From: Acholeplasmatales bacterium
Lineage (GTDB): Bacteria > Bacillota_I > Bacilli_A > Acholeplasmatales > Anaeroplasmataceae
Length of the DNA: 41,178 nucleotides
Assembly (NCBI GenBank): GCA_017462645.1
Contig: JAFTQR010000041.1
Span: forward strand, 1-41,178
Direction of reading: 5' to 3'
The notes below the pieces were generated by a model. The model worked only from the letters and a program-made list of their open reading frames with translations. It was not told the DNA's origin and searched no databases. Position numbers and translations under genes: made by a program. Positions 35,515 to 41,178 of the stretch are shown here, piece after piece; within the stretch, counting starts at the first letter, position 1, and every line of letters begins with the position of its first letter.

Positions 35515-38500
35515 CTAGATATCTAGCTCTTTAATTTCTGCCTTTAATATTGATAATAAATAAACATTAATTCTTTTATTACTAATACTAGCTACATATT
35601 CCTTATATATAGCTAATTGCTTAATATAATCCTCACTATCAGTATTAGAAAGCTTATAATCAATAATATCAATATGATCATCATATTCTACTAATATATC
35701 AATAATACCATGATAGCTATTATTACCACTATTAAAATAGAATTCATGCTCATGATATGTTTTAGCTAACGCAATATTTTCTAATATTGGGTGAGCTAAT
35801 ATTTTATTTATTGTATTTTTCATAAATTGATTAATAGGAAGGCTATCAACATTAGGATTCTTAAAATCTAATGCCTCTAATGCGCTATGGAATTCTAAGC
35901 CTAATTTAATATTCCTCTTTAATTCCTTAGATGGTAATTCCTTTAATACCTTAGAAATACGCTTACTCTCTATTAAGGAAGGCATTTCTAATTCCTTATA
36001 TTCAAGTACCTTTTTACCACTAATGCCCATATTACCCTTCTTTAGCTTATAGTTTAGGGTAATATTATAATCATTTAAATCAATTTGCTTAAAATCAAAT
36101 ACATTAGCATAATTAATCATTTTATTAAAGCTATTAAGCTTATCAAGCCTTAAATCATCATATTCACTATTTTCTAATATAATAATCATTTTCTCTCTTG
36201 CGCGAGTCAAGGCTACATAAAATAATCTAGCCTTTTCTGAAATATCATCCCTAGTGATACTATCTGTAATTAATTTCTTTACTATAGTATCACTCTTACC
36301 CATATCGGCAAAAGGAACATAAATACCATATTTCTTATGATATCCTACTGATTTAACTGCATCTTTATTGTTAAATTTAGATGACAGCATTGGGAAAATA
36401 CAATAAGGGAACTCTAAGCCCTTAGACTTATGAATAGTCATAATTCTAACACTATCACCTGATGAATTCGATAATGAATACTTAATATCAACACTACTAT
36501 CTAATAGCTTAAATAATGATTCAGCAAACTCATTCATACTCATATTTGCATCATTAAACATTTTAAATAATCCATGAATACGTTCTAGTACTACCACTAA
36601 ATTATCAACATCTCCTATTAAGGAAATATTTTGATAAATCTTAAATACATCACATATTTCATAAAATAAATTACTATATGAAATATCATTTAAGCTTGCT
36701 AAATATTTTAAATCATTATCAATAGGATATTCATAATCTAATCTAGTCATTAAATAAATATCTTCATCACTATAGCTATATAAAAAGCTTCTAGCTATTG
36801 AAGCACGGGCATGCTTATATTTTTTATTATTAATATCATTATTTTTAATACTATTAATACATAAAACAATATTACCAAATAGCTTTGGTAAGGCAGATTC
36901 CTTTAAATCTAAATCAGCCTCTATAGACATAGGTATATTAAAATATTCAAATACCTCCTTAAACAATACAAATTGAGCACTCTTATCAATTAATATCGCA
37001 AAATCACTATATGATACCCTTTTATATTCATTCTTCCTTAATACCTTATTACCGCTATCCATTATTCTTTTAACCTCTACTGCGGCAATAAAGGCCTCCT
37101 TAACCTCTTTAGGAATATTCTTAAGCTCCTCATTATTATAGGATAATATATCTAGATTAAAGGAATAATCCTGACTAATCATTTCATAATCCTTTTGACC
37201 ATATTTCATTTGATGGTCCTTAACATAATCAGCATCTCCACATTCCTCTGTCATTAAGGCATTGAATAATTTATTAATATCATCTAATACCTCTTTTCTA
37301 GATCTAAAGTTATATGATAAATCTATCTTAATACCACCATCATTTTTACTATATTTATCATATTTATTTTTAAATATATATGGATTAGCATTTCTAAAGC
37401 GATAAATGCTTTGCTTAATATCGCCAACCATATATAAATTATTATTTTCGATCAGATTGATAAATGCCTCTTGAATATCAGATGTATCCTGATATTCATC
37501 TATTAATATTTCCTTATAATAATACTTTAGCTCTTCCTTAACATCACTATTTTCCTTAACTAGCTTAATAGCTAGCTTAGCAATATCATTAAAATTAAAT
37601 TGCATTAATGATTTCTTATAATCATAAAGCCTACTCATAGCCTTATATGAAAGCTCTAATAGGAAGCTAATCGCATCCTTAGTGCTAATGATTTCATTTC
37701 TCATGTTTTCTTTATAAGGATAAGGTACAAGCTTCTTAAATTCCTTTAATAGCTCATTAGCCCTTGTCTTTACTTCCTTTACTACTGGTGATGCCTTAGG
37801 ACTAGTATTAGGAAGCTTTATATCTAAAAGCTTATAATAGTCCTCATAGCTTTTAATAGTATTCATTATACCTAATACCTCCTCTATAAAGCTAGAAAGC
37901 TTTTTAGATGGAGTATCATTTGAAGAGTGATATAATAGCTCATTAAATGAATCATTTAATATATTAAATTCCTTATTTAAGAAATCACAATATTCTGATA
38001 CAATAGAATCTATTTTAGCATCACTTAAATAATTGTCATTATAGTTAACAATAAAATCATCTAAATCAATAATTAAATCTAATTGATTACATAAATCATC
38101 AATTATATTTACTATTCTTTTATCATCCTGCTTAGAATAGTTAGAAAGAAATGATAGGAACCTTTCATTTTCTTCTAAATATAATTCATTAAATAAATCC
38201 TCTATTATTTCTGATTTTTTTAATGAAATAAGAGAAGCATCCATTATCCCAATATTAGGAGTTAATCCTAGCTTATAATAATATTTCTTTACTAAGGAAA
38301 GGCTGTATGCATCAAATGTTGTAATAAAGGCAGCATCGATTAGGCTAGCTTGTTCTAATAGATTATTATCAATTAGCTTTTGTCTAATTCTTTCCTTCAT
38401 TTCAGCCGCAGCCGCATTAGTAAATGTTAATACTAATACATTTCTAATATCATTACCACTCTTACAATACTCTAAAATTCTTTCTGATAATACGGCTGTT

Positions 38501-38583
38501 TTACCACTACCTGCACCTGCAGAAACAATAATATTACTACCTCTTTCAAAAATAGCTCTTTTTTGTTCATCAGTCCATGCCAT
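35515..38583 (-). CDS. addA: helicase-nuclease subunit AddA
   Basis: This is the helicase and nuclease subunit of the AddAB complex (Gram-positive counterpart of RecBCD), which resects DNA ends for RecA. It is 1022 residues, somewhat shorter than the usual ~1200. It has Walker A in V-S-A-G-A-G-S-G-K-T-A-V-L, helicase motif II D-E-Y-Q-D-T-S, motif III V-G-D-I-K-Q-S-I-Y-R-F-R, and T-I-H-K-S-K-G-L-E-F and L-F-Y-V-A-L-T-R-A-R. The C-terminal nuclease reads G-I-I-D-I-L ... I-I-D-Y-K. ATG 38583 is preferred (M-A-W-T-D-E-Q) with GGTGAG upstream; ATG 38595 is too close to a ribosome site. It starts one base after the addB stop. Confidence 0.95.
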   Translation of the reverse strand: MAWTDEQKRAIFERGSNIIVSAGAGSGKTAVLSERILEYCKSGNDIRNVLVLTFTNAAAAEMKERIRQKLIDNNLLEQASLIDAAFITTFDAYSLSLVKKYYYKLGLTPNIGIMDASLISLKKSEIIEDLFNELYLEENERFLSFLSNYSKQDDKRIVNIIDDLCNQLDLIIDLDDFIVNYNDNYLSDAKIDSIVSEYCDFLNKEFNILNDSFNELLYHSSNDTPSKKLSSFIEEVLGIMNTIKSYEDYYKLLDIKLPNTSPKASPVVKEVKTRANELLKEFKKLVPYPYKENMRNEIISTKDAISFLLELSYKAMSRLYDYKKSLMQFNFNDIAKLAIKLVKENSDVKEELKYYYKEILIDEYQDTSDIQEAFINLIENNNLYMVGDIKQSIYRFRNANPYIFKNKYDKYSKNDGGIKIDLSYNFRSRKEVLDDINKLFNALMTEECGDADYVKDHQMKYGQKDYEMISQDYSFNLDILSYNNEELKNIPKEVKEAFIAAVEVKRIMDSGNKVLRKNEYKRVSYSDFAILIDKSAQFVLFKEVFEYFNIPMSIEADLDLKESALPKLFGNIVLCINSIKNNDINNKKYKHARASIARSFLYSYSDEDIYLMTRLDYEYPIDNDLKYLASLNDISYSNLFYEICDVFKIYQNISLIGDVDNLVVVLERIHGLFKMFNDANMSMNEFAESLFKLLDSSVDIKYSLSNSSGDSVRIMTIHKSKGLEFPYCIFPMLSSKFNNKDAVKSVGYHKKYGIYVPFADMGKSDTIVKKLITDSITRDDISEKARLFYVALTRAREKMIIILENSEYDDLRLDKLNSFNKMINYANVFDFKQIDLNDYNITLNYKLKKGNMGISGKKVLEYKELEMPSLIESKRISKVLKELPSKELKRNIKLGLEFHSALEALDFKNPNVDSLPINQFMKNTINKILAHPILENIALAKTYHEHEFYFNSGNNSYHGIIDILVEYDDHIDIIDYKLSNTDSEDYIKQLAIYKEYVASISNKRINVYLLSILKAEIKELDI

Positions 38584-38584
38584 A

Positions 38585-40903
38585 TTACTCACCATCCTTC
38601 TCTAAAAATGGTTTTACCACTAGCATTTCAAAATCATCATATGCTACATTACATAAATCCTTATATTTACAATAAGTACATGAGCTTGTTTTGTTTAATA
38701 TTTTAGGCTTTATATCAAATTTAGCATTGTGAATATCATCACTTGCCTGATGGATAAGGCTATCTACTAAGCTAATAAGCTTATTTTGATCATCTATAGA
38801 AATAACCTTAGACTTTTTACTAAGCTCTCCACTCTTAAGAAATGCCATACCCTTAATATAATCACTATTTTCATATAAAGGATCAATATAAGGAATTAAA
38901 TTGCGCTCTGATATTGTATAACCCTCTAATCTAAAGCTTTTTTCTAATTGTTCTTTTATATCTAATCTATTATCTAAATCGATAATATTTACCTTTTGTA
39001 AATATATACCGATTATATTTATCTTCTTATTCTTAAAGCCATCATATTTACTTAATAAATACATATATGATGGAAGCTGTAGATTATAGCCATCCTCTAC
39101 ATTATTTAAGGATGCTATATCACTACCAGTTTTATAATCAATTATAGCACAATAAATTTCACCATTTACTTCTGTATATAAAACCTTATCTACAAAGCCT
39201 TCAAATTTAAAATCTGATTCCTCATATACAATATTAGGCTCTCTTAATACTAAATCAAATTTAGATAGACTTTCCTTAGATTTATTATATTTAACTAAAT
39301 AAGCTAATACCTTTTTCATTTGACTAAAATAAAACTTATCCTTATCATTTTCTGCCATATCCATATGAATATTAGTAGATTCATTAAAATCAAAATCACT
39401 ATTATAGCTATCCTCTAATACCGCATGTGCATATGCACCCATTCTAGTCGCTATTGATGACTCATATTCATTTAATCCTAATATTCTATTAGCATAGAAT
39501 TGAAATGGACATGCAAAGAAGGTTTTAATACTTGAATATGAAAATGATAGCTTTCTATCATTAAATAAATCATCTAATAATTCTTTATTAATGGGCTTAT
39601 ATTTATTATCATAGCTTCCATATTTCAAATGAGAAATATCATATTCCTCTAAAGCATTATCTGATATCTTATATTTTAGATATTTAGAATAGGCAATACC
39701 CATTCTAATATTATCCTCTAAAGCTGAATAGCCATATTCAGCTTCTCTTTTTTCTACCTTAATGCCTAGCTCATTAATTAAATTAGATGGTAATAGCTTA
39801 CCACTACTATCACTTAGGCTATATGATACATAAATATTTTTAGTTTTTAATAATAGATTAATTAAATCATTTTTAGCTATTAAATTCTTATCTATAGATG
39901 TATCTAAATTAATAATAGAAAGCTCATAATCATTTAGATATTCAATATCCTTATAAATAGCTGGTGAAACACCTAAATTAAAGCCAATATAAAATACATA
40001 TTCATCATCAAAATATTTATTTCCATTAGATACATTAATCATATCCTCATAAACATTATTTTGATATGTCATATTCTTCATTTTTCTTTTAATAAATGGT
40101 AAATATTCTAAAGGGATAGAATCATTTAAATCATAATCATTTATTAAATTAAATATTTGATTATAAATATTAGATCCATCATTTATTTTATCAAATATTT
40201 CATTAAAATTATCTAGCTCATTACATAAGCTAATAAAATCATTAGCTATTTTAGTAGATAGAATATTAGTATCTTTATTAAATTTAATTGGAATATTATA
40301 GCTTTTAGCTAATCTTTTAAATATAAACTCATATGAAGCATTCATATTAGCAATATGTATCTTACTACCCTTTACTCCACTATTAATTAATTCATATATT
40401 TTATTACATACATATAATTCTTCATCATAGCTATTATTAAATTCATATACAATAGGTAATGAATCCTTATTAGCTTCATCTACTACGTATACCTCTGTAT
40501 ATTTAGCTATTTCATTTTTTAAATATTCAAATACATGTGATTTACTAGAATCAATAAAGGTAACAGGAAATTGAGACAATCTATATTTAAAGAAATAATC
40601 ATATTTATATAGATTCATCTTAATTAAATACTTCTTACAGCTTAATATGCTATCAAGCTTTTCATTACTATAGTATTTATCCTCAATAAAAGGCATATAT
40701 TTAATATATTCATTTGCCATATCATAAGTAATTTCATATTTACTCATAATCTCGAAAATAGAGGATTTTACAGCATAGCCTAATAATTTATCCTTTAAAT
40801 CATTTAAAGTTAAAAATATAAGGTTTTTGAAGCCATTTTGACTCTTTAATATAGATTCCTTTGTTTTAGAATCACATATAATAAATCCTTCTTTTAATTC
40901 CAT
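38585..40903 (-). CDS. addB: AddB-like helicase-nuclease subunit, short form
   Basis: This 772-residue partner of AddA is much shorter than Bacillus AddB (about 1166). I see no N-terminal Walker A motif (G-x-x-x-x-G-K-T) where AddB usually has one. The C-terminal nuclease is present: Y-S-S-I-K-T-F-F-A-C-P-F-Q-F-Y-A-N-R-I-L-G, then F-E-G-F-V-D-K-V-L and A-I-I-D-Y-K-T-G. Q-L-P-S-Y-M-Y-L and an iron-sulphur cluster C-T-Y-C-K-Y-K-D-L-C (with the earlier Cys) follow. ATG 40903 is chosen with AGGTGG upstream; the longer TTG frame from 40930 lacks a site. It is the first gene of addBA. Confidence 0.88.
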   Translation of the reverse strand: MELKEGFIICDSKTKESILKSQNGFKNLIFLTLNDLKDKLLGYAVKSSIFEIMSKYEITYDMANEYIKYMPFIEDKYYSNEKLDSILSCKKYLIKMNLYKYDYFFKYRLSQFPVTFIDSSKSHVFEYLKNEIAKYTEVYVVDEANKDSLPIVYEFNNSYDEELYVCNKIYELINSGVKGSKIHIANMNASYEFIFKRLAKSYNIPIKFNKDTNILSTKIANDFISLCNELDNFNEIFDKINDGSNIYNQIFNLINDYDLNDSIPLEYLPFIKRKMKNMTYQNNVYEDMINVSNGNKYFDDEYVFYIGFNLGVSPAIYKDIEYLNDYELSIINLDTSIDKNLIAKNDLINLLLKTKNIYVSYSLSDSSGKLLPSNLINELGIKVEKREAEYGYSALEDNIRMGIAYSKYLKYKISDNALEEYDISHLKYGSYDNKYKPINKELLDDLFNDRKLSFSYSSIKTFFACPFQFYANRILGLNEYESSIATRMGAYAHAVLEDSYNSDFDFNESTNIHMDMAENDKDKFYFSQMKKVLAYLVKYNKSKESLSKFDLVLREPNIVYEESDFKFEGFVDKVLYTEVNGEIYCAIIDYKTGSDIASLNNVEDGYNLQLPSYMYLLSKYDGFKNKKINIIGIYLQKVNIIDLDNRLDIKEQLEKSFRLEGYTISERNLIPYIDPLYENSDYIKGMAFLKSGELSKKSKVISIDDQNKLISLVDSLIHQASDDIHNAKFDIKPKILNKTSSCTYCKYKDLCNVAYDDFEMLVVKPFLEKDGE

Positions 40904-41034
40904 AGTAACCACCCACCTATAATTATACAATAATTATAACTACAATAAAAAGCAATTTTAAACAAATTATTATAGCTACTAGCTATATAATAAGGTATAT
41001 ATTGACAATATGCGTGTCACTTTTAAAAATATTT

Positions 41035-41178
41035 TTAAAAAATAACAATCCGCACGTCAAACGTGCGGTTTTTACGCTCCCCTATAAGGGCTTTAACCAC
41101 ACGACGACCCTTAAGGGTCATCAAAAGCGGCTGACAACCGCGATATTCACTCTGGCTTATCCCTTGAAGGGATTTTTG
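41035..41178 (-). ncRNA. 3' part of a probable structured RNA with terminator
   Basis: The last 140 bases are clearly richer in G+C than anything else in the window and, on the minus strand, form successive short hairpins: ATCCC/GGGAT, GCGG/CCGC, GACCC-TTAA-GGGTC (41108-41121), CCC-TTATA-GGG, and finally CCGCACG-TTTGA-CGTGCGG (41050-41068) followed by ATTGTTATTTTTT, a good Rho-independent terminator. An open frame of 47 codons also crosses it and ends at TAA 41035, so a protein tail is the alternative, but the stacked hairpins and codon use unlike the neighbours favour RNA. I cannot assign it to a known family. Confidence 0.45.

Follow-up and report, generated by a model that had tools for sequence, protein, structure and literature searches.

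An ordinary IS200-group right end at the edge of an Acholeplasmatales contig, and an apparently undescribed long-range helix in its transposon group

The stretch of DNA analysed here (the window, 41,178 nucleotides of an Acholeplasmatales contig) ends in a compact row of hairpins, which raises the question of whether these hairpins form an RNA gene of their own or belong to a larger genetic element. The initial annotation described an abrupt change from strongly AT-rich sequence to about half G+C, and measurement bears this out: G+C is 0.458 over positions 41035-41178 and 0.504 over 41050-41178, against 0.281 in the remaining window, and none of the 2046 stretches of 129 nt elsewhere in the window reaches 0.504. 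The row of hairpins also holds as a structured element, as the proposed hairpins are present and the minus strand of 41035-41178 folds at -52.5 kcal/mol, compared with -34.6 +/- 3.6 for shuffled sequences (z -4.9; 0/200). The plus strand of the island folds with similar strength (z -4.8), as palindromes would be expected to do.

The genome has three copies of the island, each at a contig end or close to one: on C25, which is the window, at C6:1-147 and at C10:122-265. It is a repeat, which probably broke the assembly, and the 5′ part of the island does lie outside the window, as had been supposed, since the contig stops there at sequence that is repeated in the genome. The C10 copy extends 121 nt further upstream and encodes the C-terminal portion of a Y1 transposase, ...FWAKGYFVSTVG...NPFKG* (Pfam PF01797), and the window sequence starts within this same Y1_Tnp frame, at KNPFKG*. 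Relatives from the genus and family carry full elements composed of a left end (LE), tnpA and a right end (RE), and in the full copies tnpA stands alone, without tnpB. An intact TnpA from a relative, with its HIH and tyrosine regions present, matches the NCBIfam transpos_IS200 model (NF033573) at 158 bits; the window genome's own TnpA is represented by its C-terminus only, through PF01797. Hairpins lie near both ends of the element, the RE hairpin in the window (hairpin 4 below) and the LE hairpin in relatives and in one left end of the window genome. The upstream Y1_Tnp frame, the full elements of relatives and the transpos_IS200 match together identify the island as belonging to an IS200-group insertion sequence, of which it forms the RE and 3′ UTR. 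On this sequence evidence the feature is almost certainly an IS200-group RE on the minus strand, and the element is an ordinary member of its group. Elements of the IS200 group are expected to transpose through single-stranded DNA and to insert on the 3′ side of a short fixed target that is not duplicated; the RE copies compared here have the RE tip ATTGTTATT in common, and several left flanks end in TTATT. The parts of the RE in the window are as follows.

41041-41178, minus strand: IS200-group RE with the last tnpA codons, truncated by the contig end (three genome copies; upstream Y1_Tnp frame in the C10 copy; 142 bits with covariance model R1, which has this copy in its own training set)
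41157-41177, minus strand: 3′ end of tnpA, ...KNPFKG and the TAA stop at 41157-41159 (translation; same frame as the Pfam Y1_Tnp fragment in L003; ...DPFKG* tails in relatives)
41159-41173, minus strand: hairpin 1, ATCCCTTCAAGGGAT, mostly within the TnpA codons for PFKG
41131-41141, minus strand: RE core, GCGGTTGTCAG, flanked by hairpins 1 and 2; its complement is in the apical loop of the tnpA leader (covariation with the leader)
41103-41122, minus strand: hairpin 2, GATGACCCTTAAGGGTCGTC (10-pair helix in an 18-sequence alignment)
41076-41092, minus strand: hairpin 3, AGCCCTTATAGGGGAGC (18-sequence alignment)
41050-41068, minus strand: hairpin 4, CCGCACGTTTGACGTGCGG (CCGCACG-TTT-GACGTGCGG), subterminal RE hairpin and terminator-like stem (18-sequence alignment)
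41041-41049, minus strand: RE tip, the limit past which copies diverge (common to all copies, with differing sequence beyond)

An independent non-coding RNA, the main suggestion, gives way to a 3′ UTR and transposon end, because relatives show the island directly after tnpA. A free-standing RNA gene is rejected on the same ground: copies with enough upstream sequence mostly adjoin tnpA or a tnpA remnant, the exception being L014, an RE without tnpA. A continuous protein frame had been named as one observation that would speak against a structured RNA, and a frame is indeed present, though it covers only the first 21 nt (the TnpA C-terminus). The three CCCTT...AGGG palindromes are real and correspond to hairpins 1, 2 and 3. 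The last hairpin had been called a strong minus-strand terminator; its stem is terminator-like on both strands, and the interrupted minus-strand T run (ATTGTTATTTTTT) makes hairpin 4 fall short of a textbook terminator.

Compensatory changes in relatives, which had been suggested as a check, are present in the RE hairpins. Across 18 RE sequences, hairpins 2, 3 and 4 together form 95.3% of possible pairs; shuffling gives 84.9%, and sliding no more than 50%. Double-changed cells number 41, against 15.6 shuffled. In the same alignment 96.1% of hairpin 2 cells are paired, with both-side changes at 4 pairs; hairpin 3 has an inner helix that is 100% paired with one compensated pair, and an outer helix that is 79% paired; and hairpin 4 is 100% paired with both-side changes at 3 pairs. 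Hairpin 4 is presumed to be the recognition hairpin for TnpA, a Y1/HUH transposase. Relatives also have a hairpin at or just past the stop codon, with other sequences (for example GCCGCT..AGCGGC in L010 and L011). Two further pairings were considered. The minimum-energy fold joins hairpin 1 to hairpin 3, an arrangement that is not favoured because hairpin 1 has changed while hairpin 3 has not in L012, L021 and L028; and pairing of the RE core with sequence 3′ of hairpin 2 is present in some Firmicutes but, judged by eye, unconserved. In the window copy the core could also form a weak local hairpin (GCGGTTGTCAGCCGC). As a separate observation, the codons for the conserved TnpA tail DPFTG/DPFKG form a hairpin, for example ACCCGTTTACGGGT (L052, L055, L044 and others), such that coding sequence is also structure.

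The covariance model R1, built from the window copy and near relatives, locates REs 3′ of tnpA in Firmicutes (Clostridia and Bacilli), in Pasteurellaceae and in E. coli IS200C, whose RE scores 43.9 bits; in genome G060 four REs adjoin four tnpA copies one to one. The proposal that the island belongs to no assigned RNA family stands, with no Rfam match to the window RE at gathering thresholds, and the REs of relatives had no relevant match at relaxed thresholds. The leader at the LE of relatives is matched by an Rfam family, the Hfq-binding RNA STnc490 (RF01405; 63.7 bits in L064, cut-off 56); this match is confined to the LE, and over the window RE STnc490 gave none above its gathering cut-off. 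A plasmid collection held no match to the feature, and an exact-pattern scan of viral contigs returned nothing. Among the Pasteurellaceae elements, L035, L037, L038, L041 and L042 encode TnpA proteins 78-86% identical to that of L032 from Bacilli, and the occurrence of Bacilli-type IS200 sequences in Pasteurellaceae suggests transfer between phyla.

The RE core is complementary to a sequence at the other end of the element. In full elements the tnpA leader in the LE carries the complement of the core, in the loop of a hairpin that covers the ribosome-binding site, with the two strands roughly 550-600 nt apart. Leader loop and RE core read, for example, GGTCTGTCAACCGC and GCGGTTGGCAGACC in L064, GTTCCTACGC and GCGTAGGAAT in L058, and ATTGTTCAAGTCTATTGCA and TGCAATAGGCTTGAACGAT in L096. 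When the best leader complement in the 3′ region was scored across 76 elements, cognate partners gave 22.9, non-cognate partners 16.3 and shuffled sequences 15.0. When LE and RE were aligned separately, so that the alignment could not favour the helix, cognate pairing was 81.5%, compared with a maximum of 73.0% in 2000 permutations. Among the 34 sequences that are ungapped in the helix columns (pairing being no criterion of choice), 86.9% of cells are paired against 77.0% shuffled and at most 42% slid; double-changed cells number 48 against 15.6, both-side changes occur at 10 of 13 pairs, and the covariation score is 0.393 against 0.200. A TnpA tree of 49 sequences, with a null in which REs were swapped among near relatives only, gave 27 inferred both-side changes (7.9 expected, maximum 16 in 200) and 44 helix breaks (77.2 expected, minimum 58). 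The covariation makes a conserved LE-RE helix very probable, and the helix is well supported as a shared, apparently undescribed, feature of the IS200 group. The literature searched, a scope that left most subscription papers and the central IS200 papers outside, yielded no description of a leader-to-RE helix.

For the window genome itself, a left end on contig C13 has CTGGCAACCGT opposite the core, with 11 of 11 pairs including wobbles; its complement score of 20 is not significant alone, as 99 of 1000 shuffles reach it, and this left end, being on another contig, may belong to another copy than the window's RE. The leader loop of the window element would be expected to be complementary to CGGTTGTCAG. 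The complement is partly eroded in E. coli IS200C, and two internally deleted copies in one Enterococcus genome keep both leader loop and RE core.

The position of the helix relative to the promoter suggests how it might act. In most relatives the leader hairpin contains a -10 box that is conserved and often of the extended type. Of the 67 elements that combine a TANNNT-like box with a good helix, 57 have the first helix position 4-8 nt past the box; TG stands at the extended -10 position in 40 of 67 box-bearing elements. As the usual -10 spacing would put the start there, the native tnpA transcript is predicted, from the -10 consensus alone, to begin with the helix or no more than a few nucleotides away from it. 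In Salmonella IS200 the tnpA start has been mapped to bp 40, which lies upstream of the leader hairpin (PMC12594629), so probably not every IS200 uses an internal start. The internal -10 box of E. coli IS200C looks degenerate.

Predicted native mRNAs, when folded, form the 5′-3′ helix with P > 0.5 in 26 of 30 cases. Mean predicted SD accessibility is 0.60 in the native form, against an unpaired probability of 0.22 in the read-through form, where the leader hairpin covers the ribosome-binding site. Pseudoknots between loop and RE are beyond the folding program, so low helix values for read-through transcripts do not count against a helix in them. Started at the element's own promoter, a transcript would lack the left arm that sequesters the SD, leaving the SD freer, and its 5′ end would be locked to the 3′ UTR in a closed loop that could stabilise the tnpA mRNA or tune its translation. 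Transcripts entering from outside would form the full leader hairpin and hide the SD, with the helix still possible as a pseudoknot. The tnpA transcript would then be expected to start at GGTCTGCC....

A closed-loop mRNA is favoured because the native fold forms the helix, the SD is freer and the helix starts near the -10 box. That the helix acts mainly at the RNA level nevertheless has only about an even chance of being right, and that its effect is closed-loop stabilisation or control of translation is a tentative proposal, somewhat more apt to be wrong than right. The reading as a whole, with the RE as the 3′ UTR of an IS200 tnpA mRNA and the helix closing that mRNA from 5′ to 3′, is finely balanced. 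Much the same, as one joint judgement, may be said of the broader view that IS200-group transposons in general possess an undescribed long-range helix from the tnpA mRNA 5′ end (or the left end of the single-stranded DNA) to the RE, and that this helix is either a switch treating the element's own full-length transcripts and outside transcripts differently or a device for synapsis of single-stranded DNA.

The main rival to a closed-loop mRNA is a helix that works in single-stranded DNA, tethering left and right ends on the excised or lagging top strand and so allowing a TnpA dimer to synapse the terminal hairpins. Since the same top strand carries both helix strands, this role predicts identical covariation, and IS200/IS605 elements do transpose via single-stranded DNA with hairpins at both ends (PMC6006769). 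By itself it leaves the fixed spacing of 4-8 nt between helix and box unexplained, and the well-studied IS608 is described with terminal hairpins and short guide sequences only (PMC7290912, PMC6006769). Deletion derivatives do little to separate RNA and DNA roles: L123 and L129 share one flank and are uninformative, and the Enterococcus pair, two internally deleted copies at different sites with most of TnpA gone, keeps everything, leader loop and RE core as well as the complete RE. This retention mildly favours a DNA role, but the copies are young and it is weak evidence for that reason. A DNA tether is on balance doubtful, though it deserves serious consideration. It is improbable that the RE transcript is instead an antisense-like small RNA, derived from the tnpA 3′ UTR and acting in trans on the leaders of all copies to limit transposition. 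In its favour, core and leader loop are complementary, a terminator-like hairpin closes the RE, and Salmonella IS200 already makes an antisense RNA to tnpA, art200 (PMC12594629), yet a separate RE transcript or promoter lacks support and folding predicts stable pairing in cis within one mRNA.

Two other explanations would dispense with the helix or give the RE a different partner. If the hairpins were merely a transposase recognition site and terminator, with the LE-RE complement a by-product of shared ancestry, hairpin 4 would be just the terminator-like RE hairpin expected; the compensatory changes, however, lie far above the tree-aware and permutation controls, and helices with entirely different sequence exist (for example in L096, L058 and L072), which makes this view very improbable. 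Scarcely credible is a TnpB guide (omega) RNA or its remnant. The RE does occupy the right end, the place in which IS200/IS605-family elements that have tnpB carry their omega RNA, and resembles the omega (reRNA) RNAs of IS605 and IS607 in being a structured RNA at a transposon right end; but the full elements of relatives hold tnpA and no tnpB, the RE here follows tnpA and ends in a terminator-like hairpin, Rfam gives no match, and the one TnpB gene of the window genome is without such an RE. That gene, L144 (G000:C1:14706-14915), stands alone as a 459-aa frame with a Cas12f1-like_TNB match of 41 bits.

With regard to known systems, the element resembles other members of the IS200 group (E. 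coli IS200C, Salmonella IS200) in its single Y1 tnpA, the leader hairpin covering the ribosome-binding site and the subterminal end hairpins. A leader hairpin and the antisense RNA art200 are already known for IS200, and in Salmonella the leader hairpin hides the SD (PMC12594629). E. coli IS200C, with its partly eroded helix, differs from most Firmicutes relatives, which combine a -10 box within the leader hairpin with an intact helix. Closed-loop closing of the tnpA mRNA would also have a counterpart outside transposons. Bacterial mRNAs with pairing between 3′ and 5′ UTRs exist, such as staphylococcal icaR, and conserved 3′-5′ UTR complementarity was found for the IS200 element, on the predicted transcript and by the covariation tests. 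The likeness lies in long-range 5′-3′ pairing within one mRNA, whereas here the mRNA encodes a transposase, the helix lies at the predicted 5′ terminus and its effect is inferred. IS200, one of the oldest insertion sequences known, has a reputation for moving very little. To this group a conserved leader-RE helix would add a regulatory or mechanical part, and it would assign a function to a structured RE that is absent from Rfam. It would also provide a testable difference between the many Firmicutes elements in which it is intact and E. coli IS200C, and the RE covariance model could help to annotate IS200 ends. The locus thus presents an ordinary transposon end together with a well-supported, apparently undescribed long-range helix whose proposed function is inferred.

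Several observations concern the surroundings and fate of individual elements. IS200-group elements often lie directly 3′ of rho-independent terminators: a terminator-like hairpin is present in 46 of 64 5′ flanks (L036-L114, 95-235 nt upstream of tnpA), compared with 1 of 128 regions lying further upstream and with 4 of 53 3′ flanks, and since the upstream control is probably mostly genic, part of this signal may come from a preference for the ends of genes. A terminator precedes E. coli IS200C as well. At positions 1145-1218 of L010, the 3′ end of a group II intron (RF00029, 66.2 bits) adjoins early tnpA codons, apparently through insertion of an intron into this relative's (G022) IS200 transposase gene. 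The Enterococcus phoeniculicola elements L177 and L179 have an identical internal tnpA deletion at two sites with differing flanks, both ends and the LE-RE helix being intact, and seem to be a non-autonomous IS200 derivative that moved in trans. Downstream of the RE in the window, two genes oriented like tnpA occupy positions 35515-40930, one for a PD-(D/E)XK protein and the other for a UvrD-type helicase, an arrangement resembling addB-addA.
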